Below, one piece after another: positions 12,950 to 25,396 of a stretch of 41,955 nucleotides of DNA. This stretch comes from Clostridiales bacterium 38_11 (GTDB lineage: Bacteria; Bacillota; Clostridia; Tissierellales; Dethiosulfatibacteraceae), in assembly GCA_001509345.1 (NCBI GenBank), contig LGGM01000002.1, forward strand, positions 1 to 41,955. Reading direction: 5' to 3'. The stretch's first letter is position 1; each line of letters begins with the position of its first letter. Under the pieces are notes generated by a model. That model made no database searches. It worked only from the letters and a program-made list of their open reading frames with translations, and was not told the DNA's origin. Position numbers and translations under genes: made by a program.

Positions 12950-13666
12950 ATGGATTATATCAATGAATTGAACATTGACCTGAATCATAAAGCTATCATA
13001 ACCGTAACCGGTTCGGGTGGCAAAACAACCATAATATCTGAATTGGCAGAACAGCTTGTAAAAATGGGAAGAAAAGTAATCATTACGACAACAACCCATA
13101 TCTATTTACCAAACTTCAATAATGCTGTCACCATTTTAGGAGCAACAATACTCGCTCAGCTCAAGCTTCAACATCAATGTCTTGTGTTTGCCGGAAAATA
13201 CATCAGCGAGGATAACAAGCTTGAAGGTTTTTCGACGGAGGAAATTACAGCCATCCATAAAAACCCAAACGTAGATTTCATTATCGTTGAGGGAGATGGG
13301 TCTAAAACGCTTCCAATCAAAGGATATGAGTGTTATGAACCCGTTGTTCCGGATATGACTGATATTTTGATATCCATAATTGGGTTGAACGCTCTTGGCA
13401 AAACAGTGAATGATAAATCCGTACACAGAATTGAAAAATTTGAAAAAATCACTGGCAAAACTTATGGTGATATAATTGAAAAAGAGGATATCATCAAACT
13501 CGTTCTAGCCCCAGATGGCTATTTCAAATGTAGAGGGTATAAAAACTATTTGATTTTAAACCAGGTGAATGATAGGATTTATCACTACTCTTTTAAAATA
13601 AGAAAAGCATTAATAGAAAAAGCACCCTATATAGACAACATCATAATCAAGAGAGATAACCAATGA
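12950..13666 (+). CDS. yqeC: YqeC-family selenium-dependent molybdenum hydroxylase accessory protein
   Basis: A 238-aa P-loop protein of the YqeC family, found with molybdenum hydroxylases that contain labile selenium. It has P-loop VTGSGGKTTII (~19-29), TTTTHIYLP, FIIVEGDGSKTLPIKG and IGLNALGKTVNDKSVHR, all family marks. Its exact reaction is unknown. GAGG lies seven bases before the ATG. It leads an operon with a mocA-like gene (ATGA overlap) and xdhC. No hydroxylase subunit is in the window, so the client enzyme is elsewhere. Confidence 0.88.
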   Translation: MDYINELNIDLNHKAIITVTGSGGKTTIISELAEQLVKMGRKVIITTTTHIYLPNFNNAVTILGATILAQLKLQHQCLVFAGKYISEDNKLEGFSTEEITAIHKNPNVDFIIVEGDGSKTLPIKGYECYEPVVPDMTDILISIIGLNALGKTVNDKSVHRIEKFEKITGKTYGDIIEKEDIIKLVLAPDGYFKCRGYKNYLILNQVNDRIYHYSFKIRKALIEKAPYIDNIIIKRDNQ

Positions 13667-14250
13667 TTTCCGGTGTGGTATTAGCGTCTGGTTTTAGTTC
13701 AAGATTTGGTTCTGACAAGCTTTTAATTGATTTCAACGGTAAGAAAGTGATTAGCTGGGTTGTAGACAGCTGTGTCGGTTCCCTGCTGGATGAAATCATT
13801 GTTGTATATAGAACCCCTGAATTAGTGGATTTGTTAAAAGACTATCCTGTCAAATTGGTTGAAAACAAAATGGCAAACTCAGGAATGTCCGCCAGTGTTA
13901 GAATGGGTGTTTCCGTTCTTTCAAGTGAATCACAAGCATGCATGATTTTAATGGGAGACCAGCCTTTATTTGGAAGGGAGGATATAAACCTAATGATTCG
14001 CAGGTTTATGCTCGACAGATGCCTGATAGTAGCGTCAATTGATAGCAAAAGGAAGAATCCCGTTATTTTCCCGAGGATATATTATAAAAAGTTGCTGTCC
14101 TCATTAGGTGATAAAGGCGGTAGGGATATCATAGATTGTGATTCGAATAAGATTATGATTGAATTTGATTACAAAAAATTGTTGGATATCGATACAGCGC
14201 ATGATTTTAAGCAATTGACCGAATACAAGGAGGAGAAACATGATGTTTGA
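13663..14250 (+). CDS. mocA: MocA-like molybdenum cofactor cytidylyltransferase
   Basis: A nucleotidyltransferase of the MobA/MocA family (195 aa). It begins ISGVVLASGFSSRFGSDKLL, the nucleotide-binding loop with the conserved Arg and Lys. It continues with NSGMSASVRMGV and MILMGDQPLF (metal-binding Asp), and ends with DIDTAHDF as in MocA. It likely joins CMP to Mo-molybdopterin to give MCD, the cofactor form of the xanthine-dehydrogenase family. ATGA overlap with yqeC and the xdhC neighbour support cytidylyl rather than guanylyl transfer; this remains inference. Confidence 0.88.
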   Translation: MISGVVLASGFSSRFGSDKLLIDFNGKKVISWVVDSCVGSLLDEIIVVYRTPELVDLLKDYPVKLVENKMANSGMSASVRMGVSVLSSESQACMILMGDQPLFGREDINLMIRRFMLDRCLIVASIDSKRKNPVIFPRIYYKKLLSSLGDKGGRDIIDCDSNKIMIEFDYKKLLDIDTAHDFKQLTEYKEEKHDV

Positions 14251-15019
14251 AAAGCTGGATAAAGAAGTGAAAAGCGGAAGAGGTGCGGCATTGGTAACAG
14301 TTGTCAAATCCACTGGTTCCACACCCGCTGAGGTGGGACAACTGATGGTGGTTTACGATAATGGCAATATAGATGGCACAATTGGTGGTGGCAATCTTGA
14401 GAAAGCAATCATCCAAAAGGCGATTGAGATGATTCGTAAAGGCATAAGTGACACAATCAGTTATGATTTGACAAAAGATCTTTCGATGAATTGTGGCGGG
14501 CAGGTTGATGTTTTTGTAAGAGTGATCAAGCCGGACAATCGATTGATTATTGTAGGAGGCGGACATATAGGCTACTATCTTAACCAATTGGCAAAGATAC
14601 TCCATTTTAAAACAATTGTATTTGATAGCAGGGCAGAAGTATTGACTCAAGAAAGATATGAGAATGCAGATGAGCTCATTCTTGGAGATGTTATTGAAAA
14701 TCTATCGAATTTCAATTTTACAGAAAACGACTTCATTGTTGTTGTCACCCATGGACACAAGCATGACGAAGATGCGCTTTTTGAAATCATGGATAAGAGC
14801 GTCAAATATATTGGAGCGATCGGAAGCCGCAGGAAGGTTGCCATCATGTGCGACAATCTCAAAAAACGTGGCATAAGCCAGAAATCCATAGACAAGTTAT
14901 ATTCACCCATCGGCCTTACACTTGGTGGAAATTCTCCTGAAGAAATAGCCCTAAGCATTCTGTCAGAAATCCAATTTGTCAAATCAGGAAGGCAGTTGGC
15001 CCATTCCCGTGATATATAG
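14240..15019 (+). CDS. xdhC: XdhC-type molybdenum cofactor sulfuration/insertion protein
   Basis: A 259-aa XdhC/CoxI protein. XdhC binds MCD and helps place the equatorial sulfido (or selenido) ligand before insertion into the hydroxylase. The N-terminal domain has LVTVVKSTGSTPAEVGQLMVV and DGTIGGGNLEKAII. The C-terminal Rossmann domain has LIIVGGGHIGYYL and VVVTHGHKHDEDAL, then IGAIGSRRKVAIM and IGLTLGGNSPEEIALSILSEI. AGGAGG precedes the start, which overlaps the mocA end by 11 bases. Last gene of its operon, followed by a strong terminator. Confidence 0.93.
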   Translation: MMFEKLDKEVKSGRGAALVTVVKSTGSTPAEVGQLMVVYDNGNIDGTIGGGNLEKAIIQKAIEMIRKGISDTISYDLTKDLSMNCGGQVDVFVRVIKPDNRLIIVGGGHIGYYLNQLAKILHFKTIVFDSRAEVLTQERYENADELILGDVIENLSNFNFTENDFIVVVTHGHKHDEDALFEIMDKSVKYIGAIGSRRKVAIMCDNLKKRGISQKSIDKLYSPIGLTLGGNSPEEIALSILSEIQFVKSGRQLAHSRDI

Positions 15020-15024
15020 ATATC

Positions 15025-15053
15025 AGAGCCTCTGTTGAGGCTCTTTATTTTTT
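15025..15053 (+). terminator. Intrinsic terminator of the yqeC-mocA-xdhC operon
   Basis: AGAGCCTC (15025-15032), loop TGTT, GAGGCTCT (15037-15044), then TTTATTTTTT. An eight-base perfect stem. The converging gene ends at 15045, so the T tract overlaps its stop. Confidence 0.9.
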
Positions 15054-16409
15054 AATGGTAACAAATCCAGCTCGCCTATAATTATCAAAAATATAATAAC
15101 GGTGATCAGCTCTCAGATACTCCCCAATAAAATCTATGAGTATAGTCTCTTCGCATGTCTTAATATGATAAAAATCCTTAAAAAAATGAAAGCATTCTTC
15201 TTTAGTGTTGAAAACCTGTGGGAAGTTAAAATCTATTTCTTTATAATGATAACTGATATTTTCTAATTCCAAAAACCCCAAAATTTCCGTTGATCCTCCA
15301 CCGAATGATTTGATTTTACGTCCAATTCTCTTTTCCAGCACTTCTCCATTAAAACTATGTGTGCCTTTTTTTGGAGGGCATATGATAAAAGCTTTATCGT
15401 TAGCAATTTCGATGAATTTAACTAAATTATCTTTTTCTTTCAGAGCATTTCCACTAAAAGAACTCAAAACATAATTAAAAGTCTTGTCCTTTAGTCTAGA
15501 GAAAGAAATTAAATTGGCTTCGATGTTACTTAACTTTTGGTTGTGAATCTTTTCTGACAGGTTTAACAACATATTGAAAGATGAGTCAATACAGCATACA
15601 CTCTTGCTTTTTTTTGCAAGCGGTATAGAAAAAGCACCTGTACCAGCTCCTAAATCCAGCCAGGTTTTGGATCCCAGGTCATCCGTTTCGCGTAAAATTG
15701 TGTTCAATAAAACACTCGGATAATCGGTATGATCATATGCCAAGGCTCTTTCATACATATCAATTCTCTTTTGTTTCCATTGATGAGATCTCTTTCGCTT
15801 TAGAGGCAAATGATTCTGAATCATCCAATCCTTTATTTCTTCATAAGTCTCCGTGCCATTTGAACCAGTTAAAAACAGTACTTTGGTATCATCCCGTGAT
15901 TTTATGTTTTCAAGATAATCATCTTTTCTGTTTTTTATTACACCTATCACTGGTTTTTCACTATCCAAAGCACTGATTATGCTCTGGAGAAATGCGGGAG
16001 AATCCCTTTCCATGACACCAATCTCATCCATCACTGTAAGATCTCTATTGGTTATTGAATACTCAATGGTTCTTGCGCCAAATGAATCAAAATGCTTACT
16101 ATATACTTCCGCGCTATAGATATCTGTTCCACCAAAAACGTAAGCGACATTCTGAAAAGATACAAAATCATTCAGGGATTTGAGATATATTGTGTGACCC
16201 TTCTGATCAGGGGTTTTCCCCGTGATGAACCCTCCTAATGAAGCATTGAATTCTTCTAGTACATTTCTCAACAGATGGGACTTTCCTACCCCAACATCCC
16301 CCGAAATAAATAGATTTTTCATCGTTTTTCTTTTACAATACCTTTCTTGATCAATCTCTTGGCTGCAGTTATTACACTTAAACTTGTATTGTTTCATCTT
16401 CTCTAACAT
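15045..16409 (-). CDS. Fusion of a THEP1-type NTPase and a SAM methyltransferase
   Basis: A 454-aa two-domain protein. Residues ~1-27 carry Cys residues (CNNC, then YC) like a small zinc site. Residues ~30-200 are a nucleoside-triphosphatase of the NTPase_1/THEP1 type: FISGDVGVGKSHLL (Walker A), GGFITGK, VMDEIGVMERDSPAFLQ (Walker B) and PVIGVIKNR. Residues ~220-454 are a class I methyltransferase with WLDLGAGTGAFSIPLA (motif I) and CCIDSS. The first ATG overlaps the Lon-type gene by 32 bases; ATG 16397 (MKQYKFK) is an alternative with GAGAAG just before it. Substrate unknown. Both domains occur near cofactor genes elsewhere, so a link to the xdhC cluster is possible but unproven. Confidence 0.75.
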   Translation of the reverse strand: MLEKMKQYKFKCNNCSQEIDQERYCKRKTMKNLFISGDVGVGKSHLLRNVLEEFNASLGGFITGKTPDQKGHTIYLKSLNDFVSFQNVAYVFGGTDIYSAEVYSKHFDSFGARTIEYSITNRDLTVMDEIGVMERDSPAFLQSIISALDSEKPVIGVIKNRKDDYLENIKSRDDTKVLFLTGSNGTETYEEIKDWMIQNHLPLKRKRSHQWKQKRIDMYERALAYDHTDYPSVLLNTILRETDDLGSKTWLDLGAGTGAFSIPLAKKSKSVCCIDSSFNMLLNLSEKIHNQKLSNIEANLISFSRLKDKTFNYVLSSFSGNALKEKDNLVKFIEIANDKAFIICPPKKGTHSFNGEVLEKRIGRKIKSFGGGSTEILGFLELENISYHYKEIDFNFPQVFNTKEECFHFFKDFYHIKTCEETILIDFIGEYLRADHRYYIFDNYRRAGFVTIKK

Positions 16410-18955: not shown

Positions 18956-18984
18956 TTGAGTTTATCTTCTATCTCTGATAAAAT
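18956..18984 (+). promoter_or_regulatory. Sigma-A promoter of the riboswitch-ECF operon
   Basis: TTGAGT (18956-18961), 17 bases, TAAAAT (18979-18984). Transcription would start near 18991, just before the RNA element. Confidence 0.75.
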
Positions 18985-18994
18985 ATTGTTGAAT

Positions 18995-19089
18995 ACTTAG
19001 CTCCGATCTGCAAATCCTAAGGGGAACTATGGTTTGCAGACGATAGGTCTATCTGAAAACGGGTACACCTCCCAGTAGGAAAGGAGATA
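18995..19089 (+). ncRNA. Candidate Moco-family riboswitch aptamer
   Basis: Structure seen: outer CTCC (19001-19004) can pair with GGAG (19083-19086), with TTA/TAA beyond one mismatch. A perfect eight-base stem TCTGCAAA (19007-19014)/TTTGCAGA (19033-19040) encloses GGGGAACTATGG. A small hairpin GATAG/CTATC lies at 19042-19053. Then come CTGAAAACGGGTACACCTCCC and GGAAAGGAG. The GGAA-CTATG loop, the CTGAAAA-GGGTA stretch and the CCTCC-GGAAAGGAG end match my memory of the MOCO RNA motif (Rfam RF01055). An intrinsic terminator follows at once, so control would be by transcription termination. Context (MobB-like gene downstream; yqeC-mocA-xdhC upstream) fits. A tungsten-cofactor response is also possible. 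Confidence 0.72.
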
Positions 19090-19098
19090 ATGGTTGAT

Positions 19099-19125
19099 TC
19101 TATTCTGGGAAGAATAGATTTTTTT
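19099..19125 (+). terminator. Intrinsic terminator (expression platform) of the riboswitch
   Basis: TCTATTCT (19099-19106), loop GGGA (19107-19110), AGAATAGA (19111-19118), then seven T. It sits between the aptamer and the first gene, so it acts as an attenuator, not as the end of a gene. Confidence 0.88.
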
Positions 19126-19152
19126 GTTGCAGCCGAAACATTGGAGAAGACC

Positions 19153-20229
19153 ATGAATAAAAAATATAGAATCGTAATATACATCCTAATTGTCTTATTC
19201 CTTTCCGCTTGCAGTGGAGAACACCCTAGTGCAAGCCCGGTTTTTGACAATCACAAAAACAGTCCTGATTTATCGGATAAGGTCAACATCATCACATCAT
19301 CCGAGAATAAGCTTAGCCTTTCCCTGGAAGAACTGCATGTTATGAATCTCATTCCATTGAACAATCTTATACCGATTGGAACGCCTTCTGTGCTCATGAC
19401 ACACGATGGTGGTTTCTACCCGATAAAAATCGACGGCTATCTTGAGTACCAAGAAAATCATATAAATTATCTGAATCCAAATCAAAAGCTCGTAATATTC
19501 GATGTTGTTGGTATCATAGAACAGCCTCCTGGTAAATCAATCATGGATACCTACTATGATGCCCTAAAATTTATTGATATGGATGAGAAAGTAATGGTGA
19601 TATATATTGACGGTTTCAGCTTCGGACAATATAATTATGCTGTGGCAAATAGCTATATTCCATTTATGAGTAATTTAAACAACGTAGAAATGGCTCTAAC
19701 TGTTTTCAAACCGGTTACCAACAGCGGCATGATGGCTATGCTTACGGGACAGCCTCCCTATATTAATGGGATTAGTGACAGAAGTAACCGGAATCCTAAA
19801 GTTGAGACAATTTTCGATTATTTAAACTCTAATGGTAAATCCTCAATGCTGATAGAAGGCAATGCCAATATTCTTAATCTAAACACGGATATCATTTTAA
19901 ACCCTGATCGCAACAATAATGGGCATACTGACGATGAGGTATTTCAAAGTGCTATTGAAAATATAAATAAAGTCGATTATTACATGGTGCATATACATGG
20001 TCTTGATGATTCTGGTCATACTTATGGAGACTTTGCCGATGAGACAATGACCAAGCTTTTGGAAATTGATGGTTATGTAAAATCACTCGTTTCATTGTGG
20101 GATGAGAAGGTTATCATAACATCAGACCACGGTATGCACAGTACTGATACCGGAGGAGATCATGGTGTTTTTAGATATGAGGATATGATTGTCCCCTATA
20201 TCATCACAGAAGGAGGTATGCAAGAATGA
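19153..20229 (+). CDS. Exported lipoprotein of the alkaline phosphatase/phosphodiesterase superfamily
   Basis: A 358-aa protein from ATG 19153 (GGAG six bases upstream). It starts with a lipoprotein signal peptide and lipobox LSAC, lipid Cys at residue 20, so it is anchored outside the membrane. The catalytic domain (~145-350) has the two-metal pattern of the NPP/alkaline phosphatase fold: D153 (VIYIDGFSF), a nucleophile region with T189/S191 (KPVTNSGMMAMLTG), D285 and H289 (GLDDSGHTYGD), D325-H326 (TSDHGMH) and H337 (GGDHGVF). A Ca-loop-like segment lies at ~250-262 (DRNNNGHTDDE). It probably removes a phosphate or cleaves a phosphodiester or pyrophosphate outside the cell. It is the first gene of the riboswitch operon and overlaps the MobB-like gene as ATGA. 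The ATG at 19090 is rejected because it lies before the terminator and would bury the signal peptide. Confidence 0.85.
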   Translation: MNKKYRIVIYILIVLFLSACSGEHPSASPVFDNHKNSPDLSDKVNIITSSENKLSLSLEELHVMNLIPLNNLIPIGTPSVLMTHDGGFYPIKIDGYLEYQENHINYLNPNQKLVIFDVVGIIEQPPGKSIMDTYYDALKFIDMDEKVMVIYIDGFSFGQYNYAVANSYIPFMSNLNNVEMALTVFKPVTNSGMMAMLTGQPPYINGISDRSNRNPKVETIFDYLNSNGKSSMLIEGNANILNLNTDIILNPDRNNNGHTDDEVFQSAIENINKVDYYMVHIHGLDDSGHTYGDFADETMTKLLEIDGYVKSLVSLWDEKVIITSDHGMHSTDTGGDHGVFRYEDMIVPYIITEGGMQE

Positions 20230-20972
20230 AAGTATTTTCTGTCTATGGTTATACACAATCGGGAAAAACAACGGTGGTGGAAGCTATGGTGAGGGAACTG
20301 ACGGAAAGAGAGTTTTCAGTAGGTAGCATAAAGGAAATCCATTATGAGGATTTTAAGCTGGATACCCCCACCTCAAATACTGGAAGACACAGAAGCCAAG
20401 GTGCCAACCCAGTGACAGCAAGAGGATATACCGAAACCGACATCATGTATGATTCACAATTGACTTTACCACAGATCCTAGAACACTACCATCAGGAATT
20501 CGTTGTATGTGAAGGTGTCACCGACTACAATCTACCTAAAATAATTGCTGCTAAAACCATCAATGAGTTGGAAGAAAGATGGGAACCCGGAATATTTGCC
20601 ATATCAGGAAGAGTTGCTGAGCTATTGGATGAAACTTATAGAGATGTTCCTGTAATCAACGTGATCAAGGATCCTAAAAAACTATGTGATCTTGTGTTGG
20701 ATAAGGTTTTTGACCTATTGCCTGATGTTGATGACAAATGCTGTTTTCTATGCGGCTATGGGTGCAGAGGATTGACAGAACAGATTATTCATGGAAAAGC
20801 CAAAAGAAATGATTGCATACAGACTACATTCTCTACGAAACTCTCAATTGACGGAAGAGAAATTGGCATGGTGCCTTTCGTGGAAGAAATTTTGAGAAAT
20901 ACCTGTCTAGGTGTGGTAAGTACATTAGATGGTTATCATGAAGGCTGTAAAATCGAAATCAAATTACATTGA
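20226..20972 (+). CDS. mobB: MobB-like molybdopterin-dinucleotide biosynthesis GTPase with Cys-rich C-terminal domain
   Basis: A 248-aa protein. The N-terminal MobB-like P-loop domain has YGYTQSGKTTVVEAM (residues 7-21), the MobB pattern GSIKEIHYEDFKLDT and the conserved RHRSQGANPVTARG. FVVCEGVTDYNLPKIIAA is the switch region. The C-terminal ~80 residues hold Cys 172, 173, 176 and 180 (CCFLCGYGC) and a domain ending IGMVPFVEEILRNTCLGVV, seen in longer MobB homologues. MobB helps MobA/MocA use the cofactor; the Cys cluster may bind metal. GGAGG lies eight bases before the ATG. Its place in this operon is the strongest protein-level sign that the operon serves molybdenum or tungsten cofactor. 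Confidence 0.85.
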   Translation: MKVFSVYGYTQSGKTTVVEAMVRELTEREFSVGSIKEIHYEDFKLDTPTSNTGRHRSQGANPVTARGYTETDIMYDSQLTLPQILEHYHQEFVVCEGVTDYNLPKIIAAKTINELEERWEPGIFAISGRVAELLDETYRDVPVINVIKDPKKLCDLVLDKVFDLLPDVDDKCCFLCGYGCRGLTEQIIHGKAKRNDCIQTTFSTKLSIDGREIGMVPFVEEILRNTCLGVVSTLDGYHEGCKIEIKLH

Positions 20973-20982
20973 AGAGGTTGGC

Positions 20983-21531
20983 ATGGAAAGAAGAAAAAAA
21001 CTGTTGGATGGTTTCACTGTCTATGAACTGATTATCATTGCTTTGACAGCCTCACTTGGTCTAGCTACAAAACCTATCATTGTACCACTAAGCCATCTAA
21101 TCACCGGTCCGTTGTTCATCCCCGGGGGTTCTGTTGCAGGTGGCTTTTACATGATGTGGCTTGTATTGGGAGCTTCCCTAGTCAAGAAGAAAGGAACAGC
21201 CACAATTATCGGCATAACCCAGGGAATCATAGTCATGATAACAGGTTCGTTTGGGACTCACGGTGTCTTAAGCATATTGACCTATGGATTACCTGGTTTT
21301 GCTATAGATGTGGTGTTTCTGATATTTAAAAGGAATTTTCAGACACCTGCTGACTTTTTCTTAGCTGGTGTGTTGGCCAATATCAGTGGAACCTATTTGT
21401 CCAATCTCGTATTCTTCAGACTTCCCTTACTGCCCTTAATCATCAGTTTATCCACTGCTGCGCTATCTGGCGGACTGGGAGGCTTGCTGGCATATATGAT
21501 TTACAAACGAGTTAAAAAAATTGCTGAATAA
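20983..21531 (+). CDS. ECF transporter substrate-binding (S) component, substrate unknown
   Basis: A 182-aa membrane protein with five or six hydrophobic segments. The first helix, FTVYELIIIALTASLGLATK, is typical of S components. PLFIPGGSVAGGFYMMWLVLGASLVKKKG and LSILTYGLPGFAIDVVFLIFK follow, somewhat like the YkoE/ThiW-type S proteins. It would bind the imported small molecule in the membrane. I chose ATG 20983 because GAGG lies seven bases upstream; the ATG at 20929 lies inside mobB. A full set of ATPases and T component follows in the operon, so this is a dedicated (group I) ECF system. I do not recognise a named vitamin-specific family; the substrate must come from context. Confidence 0.82.
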   Translation: MERRKKLLDGFTVYELIIIALTASLGLATKPIIVPLSHLITGPLFIPGGSVAGGFYMMWLVLGASLVKKKGTATIIGITQGIIVMITGSFGTHGVLSILTYGLPGFAIDVVFLIFKRNFQTPADFFLAGVLANISGTYLSNLVFFRLPLLPLIISLSTAALSGGLGGLLAYMIYKRVKKIAE

Positions 21532-21559
21532 TATAATTCAACCTCTGGAGTGTACAAAG

Positions 21560-22081
21560 ATGAATAAGAATACAAAAATACTAATTGTGATCATACTATT
21601 GCTAATAGCTATTGCGACTACAGCGATATTCTTCAATAGAGATAATATTGAAGCAAGCAAAAAACTTAATGACAATGCAATATTTGTTTTGATAGAAGAT
21701 GGAGAGGAACGAGCTACTTTTCACATGGCAGAGATTCAAGCTATCGAAGAAGTCGATTTTACCGCCACGTTGAGATCGAGTGGATCTGATCCCATGGATC
21801 ATGTCTATACAGGAGTATTATTAAAAAACATATTTACACATGCCAATATATCTCTTGAGGGCAAAGAAACAGTCATTGTAACAGCTGCTGACGGCTACAC
21901 AGTAGCCATCACGATGGATAAATTTCTGGACGATGACAATGTATACCTTGCCTACATGATGGATGGAAAACTATTGGGAACCAAAGAAGACGGCGGATCA
22001 GGTCCATACCAGATGATTATCCGAAAAGACCCGTTTAGTCAGTTCTGGTGCAAATTTGCTATTACAGCCGAAATAAACTAG
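21560..22081 (+). CDS. Membrane-anchored extracytoplasmic protein with sulfite-oxidase (molybdopterin-binding) fold
   Basis: A 173-aa protein with one N-terminal membrane segment (residues ~6-25). The outer domain at ~40-173 matches the oxidoreductase molybdopterin-binding (SUOX) fold in order: VYTGVLLKNIF, VTAADGYTVAI (DGY at 111-113), VYLAYMMDGKLL, GPYQMIIRK and FWCKFAITAEI. At the position of the usual Mo-ligand Cys segment it has TLRSSGSDP, so catalysis by a bound Mo atom is unlikely and a binding or accessory role is more probable. ATG 21560 has GGAG nine bases upstream. It lies between the S component and the ATPases, as accessory subunits such as CbiN or NikL do in other group I ECF systems. 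Confidence 0.75.
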   Translation: MNKNTKILIVIILLLIAIATTAIFFNRDNIEASKKLNDNAIFVLIEDGEERATFHMAEIQAIEEVDFTATLRSSGSDPMDHVYTGVLLKNIFTHANISLEGKETVIVTAADGYTVAITMDKFLDDDNVYLAYMMDGKLLGTKEDGGSGPYQMIIRKDPFSQFWCKFAITAEIN

Positions 22082-22089
22082 GAGTCAAT

Positions 22090-22782
22090 ATGCTACAATA
22101 TGCTTTGGAAGCCAAAAATCTATCTTTTAGATACAGTCACAATAGTCCTTTTATTCTGAAAAATATCAACTTAAAACTTCGAAAAGGTGAAATTACAGGC
22201 ATTGTGGGGTTGAGTGGGTCCGGAAAGTCGACATTGATTCAGATACTAAATGGCGTCATACCAAAAAGGGTTACCGGATTTCTGGATGGATCTGTCTACC
22301 TAAACGGTGTAGATATCGCTGATATGGAATTATCCTATCTTGCAAGGAAAATTGGAACTATCTTTCAGGATCCGGATTGCCAGATTCTTTTCCCTTGTAC
22401 AGAGGATGAAATGGCTTTTGGCCCGGAGAACTTATGCTATGAGCCTTACGCTATAATTGAAAGAATTAATTCGACAGCAAAAATGCTGGCAATAGAACCA
22501 CTACGTTATCGAAATCCCAACACTGTATCAGGCGGGGAAAAGCAGATAATCGCTTTGGCCTCTGTACTTACTTTGAATGTAGGAATAATGATTTTTGATG
22601 AAAGCATGTCTTTTATAGATGATCGCGGAAAAGAATTAATAAAAAACGCGATTTTAAAGCTAAAGAAACAAGGAAAATCCATTCTCATGGTGGAACATGA
22701 CTTATCTAATCTAGAAGTTGCAGACCATATTTTTTTATTGAAAAACGGAACCCTAGAACCATTCAAGGGGGTAATTGAATGA
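22090..22782 (+). CDS. ECF transporter ATPase 1
   Basis: A 230-aa ABC ATPase of the EcfA/CbiO type. Walker A is GLSGSGKST, the Q-loop is IFQDPDCQILF (the Q-D-P of EcfA proteins), the signature is VSGGEKQ, Walker B is IMIFDES and the H-loop is VEHD. Glu follows the Walker B Asp, so it should be catalytic. ATG 22090 has AGGAG five bases upstream and lies eight bases after the preceding stop. Stops overlap with the next gene as ATGA. It pairs with ATPase 2 to drive the transporter. Confidence 0.93.
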   Translation: MLQYALEAKNLSFRYSHNSPFILKNINLKLRKGEITGIVGLSGSGKSTLIQILNGVIPKRVTGFLDGSVYLNGVDIADMELSYLARKIGTIFQDPDCQILFPCTEDEMAFGPENLCYEPYAIIERINSTAKMLAIEPLRYRNPNTVSGGEKQIIALASVLTLNVGIMIFDESMSFIDDRGKELIKNAILKLKKQGKSILMVEHDLSNLEVADHIFLLKNGTLEPFKGVIE

Positions 22783-23441
22783 ATGAGTTTATCAGAATCG
22801 AACGACTCTTCTGCAGTTTAAACAAGGTGCAGGTATTAAGAAACATCAATATGACGTTAAACAGCAAGGAGTTTGTCTCGATTATAGGTCCCAACGGTAG
22901 CGGAAAAACCACATTAGGTAAAGTTATAACCGGCATCATCAAACAAGATTCTGGTGAAATTTTTATAGATAATAAAAATATAAAAGACTTGTCTCTTCCA
23001 GAAATTGGTCGTAAAATCGGTTACCTTTTCCAAAACCCCGATCGGCAGATATTTGCTTCAACTGTTTATGAGGAGCTATCTTTTGCTTTGAAATACAAAA
23101 AAACTTCCATAGACATCATCGAAAAGAGAGTAGGTGAAATTTTAGACATTTTTGAGTTGAACCATCTCAGAGATGCCTCTACCTATTCCCTCAGCCAGGG
23201 TGAAAAACAAAGATTGGCTATAGGCGCTATATTGCTTAACGATCCCGAATATCTGATACTGGATGAACCTACAACCGGATTGGATCCCAAACGGAAAAAC
23301 GAACTTAGTAAACTCCTCAATTCTCTGATCAATCATGTGGGAATACTCCTGATCAGTCATGACAAAGCCTTTGTTTTAAAGCATTCAGATAGAATAATAG
23401 AATTGTACGATGGGAGTTTAAAAAATGACAAAAAAAATTGA
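22779..23441 (+). CDS. ECF transporter ATPase 2
   Basis: A 220-aa ABC ATPase, second half of the EcfA/EcfA' heterodimer. Walker A is GPNGSGKTT, the Q-loop FQNPDRQIF, the signature LSQGEKQR (Q for the second G is common in EcfA), Walker B YLILDEPT and the H-loop ISHD. It starts in an ATGA overlap with ATPase 1 and overlaps the T component by 17 bases, so all three are translated together. Confidence 0.93.
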   Translation: MNEFIRIERLFCSLNKVQVLRNINMTLNSKEFVSIIGPNGSGKTTLGKVITGIIKQDSGEIFIDNKNIKDLSLPEIGRKIGYLFQNPDRQIFASTVYEELSFALKYKKTSIDIIEKRVGEILDIFELNHLRDASTYSLSQGEKQRLAIGAILLNDPEYLILDEPTTGLDPKRKNELSKLLNSLINHVGILLISHDKAFVLKHSDRIIELYDGSLKNDKKN

Positions 23442-24162
23442 TCCCAGAGTCAAGTTGTTATTTGTAATATGTATTTCAAGCTTAGGGCTTGCATTCACAA
23501 AATTTTCTATGCTTCTTGCTGTTTTTTTTATTGGTTTGTTGATATCTCATGTCTTAAAAGCTGATTTATTTATGCTCCTGAAACGCATCAAAATTATGCT
23601 ATATCTTTTTGTGGTTCTTGTTGTCATTCAAAGCATTTTCGTCAGATCAGGAGACAGTTTGGTTAATCTTGGAGGTATAACCATCCTCACGTCAGAAGGC
23701 CTCAGTCGAGGATTCGCTTATTTGATGAGGGTCCTGATTATACTAATATCAGGTGCCATCATAGCTACTTGCGATATGAGAAGACTCATACAAGGACTTA
23801 TTCAGATGAAATTACCTTATGATTTTGCATTTATGACCTCAATTGGTGTCAAGTTTCTTCCTTTGCTCATGGAAGAGCTTAAAGACACACTTACAGCCAT
23901 TCAACTGCGAGGGATAGATATAGGCAAACTCCAATTGAAAGAAAGAATTGAAATCATTTCATATATCTTCACCCCGGTATTCGTTGGAGCTTTATCTAAG
24001 GCTAAAAAATTATCGCTGTCAGTAGAGTGCCGGGGATTCAGAGCATTCGACAATAGAACCAGTATTCTGACACTCAAATTTAGCCCCTTTGATTATTTGG
24101 CAATAACACTCACATTTATACTAACCGCGACATTGATTATTACGAATCAGTACTTCATCTAA
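23425..24162 (+). CDS. ECF transporter transmembrane (T) component
   Basis: A 245-aa CbiQ/EcfT-family protein. It begins KKIDPRVKLLFVICISSL, the family start, and has about five hydrophobic segments. Its two coupling motifs with Arg-Gly are QLRGIDIG and ECRGFRAF, which dock into the ATPases. GGGAG lies eight bases before the ATG. It completes the S-A-A-T set. Confidence 0.92.
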   Translation: MTKKIDPRVKLLFVICISSLGLAFTKFSMLLAVFFIGLLISHVLKADLFMLLKRIKIMLYLFVVLVVIQSIFVRSGDSLVNLGGITILTSEGLSRGFAYLMRVLIILISGAIIATCDMRRLIQGLIQMKLPYDFAFMTSIGVKFLPLLMEELKDTLTAIQLRGIDIGKLQLKERIEIISYIFTPVFVGALSKAKKLSLSVECRGFRAFDNRTSILTLKFSPFDYLAITLTFILTATLIITNQYFI

Positions 24163-24182
24163 AACGAAACTAGGGAGTCAAT

Positions 24183-24821
24183 ATGAAAATACTGAAAAAA
24201 TTCTACTCAAAAAAAAACCTGGTCTATTTATTGGAAGACGGACAAACAATAGCTGTATATAAGTTATTCAGTGACAGTGGCAATTATCTTAAAGAGAAAA
24301 AATACTATCGGATGTTCCAATCCACAAACCTGGCAGTACCAATGATGCTTGCCCATAAAAATGAAAACAATAGTATTTTATTGGAATACCTTCAGGGGGA
24401 AACAGTCTTAGATCTTATGGAGCAACATGAAAAAAACCTCAACTATAATGAGGCTTTAAATCTTCTAACAGGTGTATTCATTTGGATCAAAGACTTTCAC
24501 GAGCTAAAAGACATCAAATCAAACAAACTTTCATTTTATGACTTGAATCTTAGAAATTTCATTCTTAGAAATTCCACTGTTTACGGTGTGGATTTCGAAT
24601 CGATACGGGAGGGTGATTTACTCTCAGACACAGCAAAACTAATCGGAATGTATTTGAATTATGATAAAAAATACAGTGCTTTTAAAAACAAGACGATTTC
24701 TGATTTCAAAAATTTCATTGTTGAAAACCACTGTTTTAATATGGAGAATCTAGAAAAAAACATATCGGACGAAATTTCAGTAATAAACAACAGAAGAAAC
24801 CTGAAGTCAAATGTGATATAA
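24183..24821 (+). CDS. Small kinase-fold protein (APH/Kdo-kinase-like)
   Basis: A 212-aa protein that looks like a minimal protein-kinase-like fold. A beta-3 Lys is in IAVYKLF (K27), a hinge is LLEYLQGET (~66-74), the catalytic loop is FYDLNLRN with D120 and N125 (the usual His of HxD is Phe), and the metal-binding Asp is in VDFES (D137). The phosphotransfer residues are thus present. It is 20 bases after the T component with AGGGAG upstream, so it belongs to the ECF operon. By analogy with vitamin salvage operons it may phosphorylate the imported compound. I do not recognise a named family; a lipid or sugar kinase role is possible. Confidence 0.65.
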   Translation: MKILKKFYSKKNLVYLLEDGQTIAVYKLFSDSGNYLKEKKYYRMFQSTNLAVPMMLAHKNENNSILLEYLQGETVLDLMEQHEKNLNYNEALNLLTGVFIWIKDFHELKDIKSNKLSFYDLNLRNFILRNSTVYGVDFESIREGDLLSDTAKLIGMYLNYDKKYSAFKNKTISDFKNFIVENHCFNMENLEKNISDEISVINNRRNLKSNVI

Positions 24822-24850: not shown

Positions 24851-25396
24851 ATGACTATATATACAAAAAAAGGAGATACGGGCACCACTTCAACAGTAAC
24901 AGGCGACAAGATTTCAAAAAGTAGCCAACTGTTGGAATTGCAAGGTTCTGTTGATGAGGTGAATGCAGGTATCGGTTATCTGATTTCCATTTGCTGTGAG
25001 ACCATGATTGGGAAAGAAATCAAACACGTAGTCGACATGCTACGAGATATTCAACATGCTTTATTTCGTATTGGAACAGATGTTTCATCGAACTTTACAA
25101 AAGATTTGTTGGAAGAAAATGAGATTGTGTTGCTCGAAAAAGAAATAGATTTGATGGAGTCAAAAACCGGATCACTGACCAATTTTATCCATTATAGCGG
25201 CACACGGGCGTCCACTTACACTCATGTTGTCAGATCTGTGACAAGAAGGACCGAAAGAGTTTTTGCAGGACTTTTGAAAGAAAAAATCCCCAATGATTAT
25301 AAGTATCTAAACAGACTTGCTGATTATTTTTTCGCATTGGCTAGATATTTAAACCACCTTGAAGAAATTGATGATGAAATATTGAAGCTCAGGTAA
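24851..25396 (+). CDS. pduO: PduO-type cob(I)alamin adenosyltransferase
   Basis: A 181-aa ATP:cob(I)alamin adenosyltransferase making coenzyme B12. It starts TIYTKKGDTGTTSTVTGDKISK, the ATP-binding segment, and has VDEVNAGIGYL. The C-terminal RSVTRRTERVF and YLNRLADYFFALARYLN are conserved in PduO. AAAGGAGG precedes the ATG. It could be read from the ECF operon or from its own extended -10 promoter. Its presence leaves open a cobalamin link for the ECF system, but the riboswitch and MobB argue for molybdenum. Confidence 0.95.
   Translation: MTIYTKKGDTGTTSTVTGDKISKSSQLLELQGSVDEVNAGIGYLISICCETMIGKEIKHVVDMLRDIQHALFRIGTDVSSNFTKDLLEENEIVLLEKEIDLMESKTGSLTNFIHYSGTRASTYTHVVRSVTRRTERVFAGLLKEKIPNDYKYLNRLADYFFALARYLNHLEEIDDEILKLR

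Follow-up and report, generated by a model that had tools for sequence, protein, structure and literature searches.

A Moco riboswitch-controlled ECF transporter operon of Clostridia as a probable salvage system for a molybdopterin-based cofactor

The window analysed here is a stretch of 41,955 nucleotides from Clostridiales bacterium 38_11 (assembly GCA_001509345.1, contig LGGM01000002.1, positions 1 to 41,955 of the forward strand), and it contains an operon of eight co-directional genes (19153 to 24821), separated by short gaps or overlapping, downstream of a riboswitch of the molybdenum cofactor (Moco) and tungsten cofactor (Tuco) family. The operon encodes a complete energy-coupling factor (ECF) transporter and is probably a salvage importer for a molybdopterin (MPT)-based cofactor (Moco, Tuco or metal-free MPT) switched on at cofactor shortage. 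Such a role would account for the riboswitch and for the presence of a pterin-binding fold, a lipoprotein that would cleave nucleotides, a dedicated pump, and cytoplasmic MobB and kinase proteins; most of all, it would explain how genomes full of Mo/W enzymes can have lost the genes for cofactor biosynthesis. Import of a molybdopterin-like compound had been proposed in a sequence-only reading of the window, and the proposal gains support from the RNA link, from the loss of moa and moe genes and from the relatives of the sulfite oxidase-fold (SUOX) protein, the ligand itself being deduced from sequence. The features of the operon and its leader are as follows:

18956..18984, + strand: possible promoter TTGAGT-17-TAAAAT with extended -10 TG (consensus scan, 9/12)
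18989..19102, + strand: Moco/Tuco riboswitch aptamer RF01055, form without the P3 stem (Rfam covariance match)
19099..19125, + strand: intrinsic terminator hairpin followed by T7, putative expression platform (fold)
19153..20229, + strand: secreted lipoprotein, type I phosphodiesterase/nucleotide pyrophosphatase of the alkaline phosphatase superfamily (PF01663, 5e-15; lipobox LSAC)
20226..20972, + strand: MobB-like P-loop protein with a C-terminal Cys-rich iron-sulfur (FeS) domain (PF03205, 4.9e-17)
20983..21531, + strand: ECF substrate-capture (S) component, YkoE-like (PF09819)
21560..22081, + strand: membrane-anchored extracytoplasmic SUOX-fold protein without the catalytic Cys (PF00174)
22090..22782, + strand: ECF ATPase A1 (ECF_ATPase_1, 2e-54, under the curated cut-off)
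22779..23441, + strand: ECF ATPase A2 (ECF_ATPase_1, 1e-51, under the curated cut-off)
23425..24162, + strand: ECF T component, CbiQ family (PF02361, 2.5e-25)
24183..24821, + strand: small kinase-fold phosphotransferase, APH/Bud32-like (conserved catalytic residues)

The host genome (1.88 Mb, 97% complete) carries 6-7 tungsten enzymes of the AOR family together with Mo-hydroxylase subunits, and family searches of it gave no match to MoaC, to the MoaA C-terminal domain or to MoeA; the same marker searches recovered the control matches in well-known genomes. The host uses Mo/W enzymes without detectable de novo MPT synthesis, which is the pattern expected with Moco salvage. FdhD was also looked for and was absent, which is not decisive. 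The same absence of moa and moe genes was noticed in G006 (99% complete, 11-12 AORs), in the near-complete G165 and G167, in the single-contig G021, and in G172, G175, G180, G194 and G020. In G009, G005 and G186 MoaA and MoaC are absent and moeA is kept along with mobA and mobB, as expected if a compound of the molybdopterin level enters from outside. The predicted co-occurrence of the operon with loss of moaA, moaC and moeA, Mo/W enzymes remaining, was thus found in the host and in several other genomes.

For the wider survey, 249 genomes of the host's order were searched for the S component, and an orthologue was present in 36 (40 with distant matches). Among genomes bearing Moco RNA, MoaC was missing from 15 of the 36 S-positive ones versus 4 of the 54 S-negative ones (p 1.5e-4, uncorrected for phylogeny). 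The losses are scattered, since supported branches of the S tree show at least seven switches between presence and absence of MoaC (parsimony gives 19). In a set of 50 S-bearing GTDB genomes 14 lack MoaC, among them Anaerosalibacter massiliensis ND1 and strain HSG29. The absence of MoaC from G243 is explained solely by its MoaA lying at a contig edge. MoaE was uninformative as a marker, because it is absent or very divergent even where MoaC is present.

In evolution the operon behaves as a true unit, conserved across Clostridia: its gene set is met again in dozens of genomes, which rules out a chance arrangement. The SUOX-fold protein, both ATPases and the T component were found at all 28 loci of the order with enough downstream sequence, in varying gene order, accompanied by the phosphodiesterase (27 loci), MobB (25) and the kinase (19). 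Searching of GTDB genomes gave 247 relatives of the S component, in Dethiosulfatibacter, Sedimentibacter, Alkaliphilus, Pelotomaculum, Syntrophomonas, Sporotomaculum and others. At the 62 of these loci with enough sequence the ATPases and T component occurred in 56-58, MobB and the membrane SUOX protein in 50 each, some SUOX-domain protein in all 62, and the phosphodiesterase and the kinase in 39 each.

The association with the riboswitch is kept over many families. Within the order, Moco RNA was detected in every one of the 36 S-positive genomes versus 54 of the 213 S-negative ones (p 5e-19, Fisher, uncorrected for phylogeny); in 29 of the 36 it lies on the same strand at most 10 kb upstream of S, and in six of the remaining seven the contig ends upstream of S. 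A covariance model built from the operon RNAs of the order, used to scan 80 GTDB loci, gave an upstream copy in 51. Scanning of 22 loci with Rfam revealed no thiamine or B12 riboswitch; the FMN, SAM and T-box elements seen there are unrelated and lie outside the operon. The S homologues are found mainly under Moco RNAs and, in the loci scanned, not under thiamine or B12 riboswitches, as the sequence-only reading had anticipated. At some loci the Moco RNA preceding S is doubled or tripled in tandem (L139:7195-7661, L131:8378-8674, L130:2435-2713). At another locus (L159; G186:C1, 264-270 kb), in a genome without moaA and moaC, a Moco RNA stands just upstream of mobB, a mobA-moeA fusion and an ABC importer of the FecB/BtuF-like type; here the riboswitch may control a second importer, for a metal or a cofactor.

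In the window itself, the aptamer reaches 52 bits (gathering score 36, E 9.8e-10) and belongs to the sole Rfam RNA family detected in the 42 kb. Its conserved core is present and the P3 stem is absent in the cmscan alignment, and the same P3-less form is seen in 14 of 14 relatives aligned with it. According to Regulski et al. 2008 (PMC2408646), this form is associated with the tungsten cofactor. An 8 bp hairpin (19099-19118; -13.1 kcal/mol, z -2.2) followed by seven T at 19119-19125 fits a putative terminator expression platform. The leader had been described earlier as a promoter, an RNA element and an attenuator; the RNA and the terminator hairpin were upheld, and the promoter is unproven because the consensus scan showed no excess of such matches over shuffled sequences. 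The eight genes and their families were recovered by Pfam and NCBIfam as first described, and the observation of a riboswitch-headed eight-gene operon is confirmed.

YkoE is a group I S component for a vitamin, and ECF transporters are importers. The S component of the operon (AlphaFold pLDDT 87) gives YkoE (5EDL) as the best Foldseek match, with TM 0.76 and 19% identity in the structural match, and the modelled fold is of the ECF type, matching RibU and ThiT as well. S, two ATPases and T are encoded together, as in dedicated-module (group I) ECF transporters, so the full ECF set claimed at first reading was borne out by Pfam/NCBIfam matches and by the S model. A YxxW motif on helix 2 resembles the thiamine site of YkoE (Y46, W49, E77, Q95, D131), a comparison made at the level of motifs; on helix 3, Gln80 is invariant and conserved acidic residues are lacking. 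In L067-L072 (e.g. L070:7676-8212) a paralogue of S with about 33-39% identity occurs inside Mo-hydroxylase clusters, where its neighbours are MoCoBD subunits, XdhC, NTPase_1, a methyltransferase and a MobA-like protein; neither ECF ATPases nor Moco RNA are found near it.

The surface protein with a sulfite-oxidase-like fold does have that fold (pLDDT 92), with the correction that it possesses an N-terminal membrane helix and is devoid of the Mo-ligating Cys, LxTS/LRSSG replacing the Cys motif in 47 aligned members. Its invariant C-terminal Lys (K165) aligns with the Lys of the VKH segment of SorA, a segment which in SUOX enzymes presumably contacts the MPT phosphate. The best solved relatives are the PruR pterin-binding proteins, followed by sulfite oxidases and dehydrogenases, and the operon protein is PruR-like in being a secreted SUOX fold without the Cys. 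PruR, located in the periplasm, has a SUOX fold without the Cys and binds reduced pterins (PMC13259868), and the operon protein is a putative pterin- or Moco-binding protein.

Many related operons start with large S-layer proteins bearing SUOX domains, with FMN_bind/SUOX lipoproteins and with Fer4_5/FMN_bind membrane proteins. Shr-like heme-protein-interacting (HID) domains, known from a heme-capturing surface protein, are combined with SUOX-fold and S-layer homology (SLH) domains in S-layer proteins adjoining S (L123:7312-11298, L131:9640-12954, L139:9820-13467). Apart from the one in the window, the host genome has a single Moco RNA, located ahead of a secreted SUOX-SLH protein that is truncated where the contig ends. 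The surface layout is like that of heme piracy and, by analogy alone, suggests capture of protein-bound cofactor. An FAD_binding_2 and FMN_bind reductase is found with Fer4_5/FMN_bind proteins in related operons (L045:13356-15245 and relatives), suggesting an extracytoplasmic reduction linked to uptake.

The lipoprotein likely starts at 19153, to which an ATG at 19090 considered earlier was corrected. It keeps its two-metal site, judging from invariant D153, T189, D285, H289, D325, H326 and H337, which we take to be the two-metal site and nucleophile of nucleotide pyrophosphatase/phosphodiesterase (NPP) and alkaline phosphatase superfamily members. The MobB-like protein, a P-loop GTPase by its fold, passes the PF03205 cut-off, has solved MobB structures as its top matches and an invariant Walker A motif; the match of its FeS domain is weak. 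The kinase-fold protein, with Bud32-like matches that are sub-threshold in NCBIfam and with amicoumacin kinase and Bud32 as the top PDB relatives, is probably active, given conserved K27, E38, D120, N125 and D137-F-E139.

The following course of events can be proposed. At low cofactor the P3-less aptamer would be empty, the terminator would not form and the operon would be read, an OFF-switch direction that we infer for this member of a known riboswitch family. Outside the cell, the NPP-type lipoprotein would split the nucleotide forms (molybdopterin guanine or cytosine dinucleotide, MGD or MCD) or take off phosphate. The Cys-less SUOX-fold protein, by its fold and the PruR precedent, would bind the pyranopterin and pass it to S, as the S-layer and lipoprotein SUOX proteins of relatives may do likewise. 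The S component and the A1A2T motor, an ECF assembly evident from its genes, would import the cofactor, which may already carry its metal, given that MoeA is missing from the host too. Finally, the kinase and MobB-FeS would re-add phosphate or form dinucleotides for tungsten AORs and molybdenum hydroxylases. The sequence of these steps, and what the kinase, MobB-FeS and the lipoprotein do in it, is our inference.

It is unlikely that the imported species is a smaller pterin or a Moco precursor (cyclic pyranopterin monophosphate (cPMP), a dephospho-pterin or monapterin) instead of MPT or Moco. PruR-type SUOX proteins bind small reduced pterins (PMC13259868) and the kinase could phosphorylate a dephosphorylated pterin, however cPMP would need MPT synthase and MoeA, the latter absent from the host, and simple pterins would not replace MoaA and MoaC. 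The lost genes also make it quite improbable that the ECF system brings in molybdate or tungstate for cofactor synthesis, even though Moco RNAs also control modABC-type transporters (PMC2408646): carriers without MoaC include the host, those checked lack MoaA and mostly MoeA, and an oxyanion alone would be useless to them. Moreover, the YkoE-like fold of S serves for organic vitamins, and neither the pterin-fold protein nor the phosphodiesterase has a role in oxyanion uptake.

The resemblance to YkoE, including the YxxW motif, and the cobalamin adenosyltransferase following the operon in the host's genus could speak for an importer of thiamine, hydroxymethylpyrimidine (HMP) or another vitamin (B12, flavin) merely sitting under a Moco RNA. 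This is highly improbable, as the Moco RNA link is kept over many families, no thiamine or B12 riboswitch was met in the loci scanned, and MobB and SUOX are the conserved partners, whereas the adenosyltransferase is genus-specific. Very unlikely, too, are SUOX-fold proteins acting as genuine extracytoplasmic Mo/W redox enzymes served by the ECF system and the FMN/FeS partners, with no salvage involved. Relatives do add FMN_bind and Fer4_5 membrane proteins resembling an electron chain, but the members inspected are without the Cys that would ligate the metal, ECF transporters import, and the ECF core is constant whereas the redox partners occur neither in the host operon nor in many of the relatives.

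Several points weigh against the salvage of a molybdopterin-based cofactor. Uptake is not obligatory, as MoaC is retained in the majority of S-positive genomes; many of those without MoaC are draft metagenome-assembled genomes in which single absences can be wrong; G169, G178, G229 and G235 are MoaC-negative with AORs yet without S; and at some Pelotomaculum/Formimonas-type loci S has no nearby Moco RNA. Moco is labile to oxygen and would be a large ligand for an S component, and the S fold here is nearest to that of the thiamine-binding YkoE. PruR itself is thought to be too small for Moco (PMC13259868). G222 (AORs, no MoaA or MoaC, no S) was considered as a further counter-example and set aside, because its Moco RNAs are followed either by SLH/SUOX genes or by the end of the contig, and it cannot be judged.

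The neighbourhood of the operon holds further genes. The MocA and XdhC genes had been counted as parts of the system, a claim which was given up because they are not among the conserved operon members:

13663..15019, + strand: MocA (MobA-like) and XdhC, Mo-hydroxylase maturation genes (Pfam)

Beside YqeC-MocA-XdhC lies an NTPase_1 (THEP1-like) fused to a SAM methyltransferase (15045-16409, - strand); NTPase_1 relatives also adjoin the ECF operon in L042, L044, L048, L103, L124 and L142. The PduO-type cobalamin adenosyltransferase (24851-25396, + strand) is placed 30 bp behind the kinase, a position shared by only two genus relatives. Both were dropped as core parts, being not conserved with the operon.

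One of the closest known systems is YkoEDC, a group I ECF transporter for thiamine (5EDL, PMC5037267), alike in the S fold, the dedicated A and T components and PF09819. In contrast to YkoEDC, the present operon stands under a Moco RNA, is linked to MobB, a SUOX-fold protein, a phosphodiesterase and a kinase, and is tied to loss of Moco synthesis. It may best be read as a variation on ECF vitamin import in which the class of substrate would be new. The leader shares the aptamer, the P3-less form and the terminator platform with the RF01055 elements of Regulski et al. 2008 (PMC2408646), which names moa, mob, mod, tungsten and SUOX-like targets and does not use the term ECF. PruR (7KOM, 7KOS; PMC13259868) is likewise a small secreted SUOX fold without the Mo-ligating Cys, however it signals to DcpA and binds small pterins, whereas the operon protein is membrane-anchored beside an importer and has the conserved C-terminal Lys common to the sulfite dehydrogenase SorA. 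Gram-positive heme capture (Shr/Isd) offers an analogy, since there too proteins anchored at the surface catch a cofactor that is imported intact by way of a membrane receptor and an ABC transporter, and Shr-like HID domains occur in some of the S-layer proteins of relatives; nevertheless, the transporter is not homologous and the cofactor here would be a pyranopterin. Dietary Moco uptake by C. elegans (PMC9793310) also uses ready-made external Moco, in an animal and by an unknown transport mechanism.

No description of an ECF and Moco RNA system or of a bacterial Moco importer was found in the open-access literature. Moco is generally treated as a cofactor which each cell must make itself. 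A large survey listed hundreds of prokaryotes with molybdoproteins and without a complete Moco pathway, for which no mechanism was offered (PMC6147048). A riboswitch-controlled importer would account for part of those pathway-less genomes. It would also show that anaerobic communities share the cofactor and offer a genetic means of delivering Moco, and an orphan ECF S family, with 247 occurrences in GTDB genomes, would gain a substrate. A bolder version, slightly less likely than not, is that the operon may be the first cellular importer of intact metal-loaded Mo/W cofactor, in which, much as in Shr/Isd heme capture, S-layer and membrane SUOX catchers at the surface feed a dedicated ECF pump. 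If this is true, the import of intact cofactor would let Clostridia rich in tungsten enzymes live without making the cofactor, and part of the “orphan molybdoprotein” genomes would be explained.

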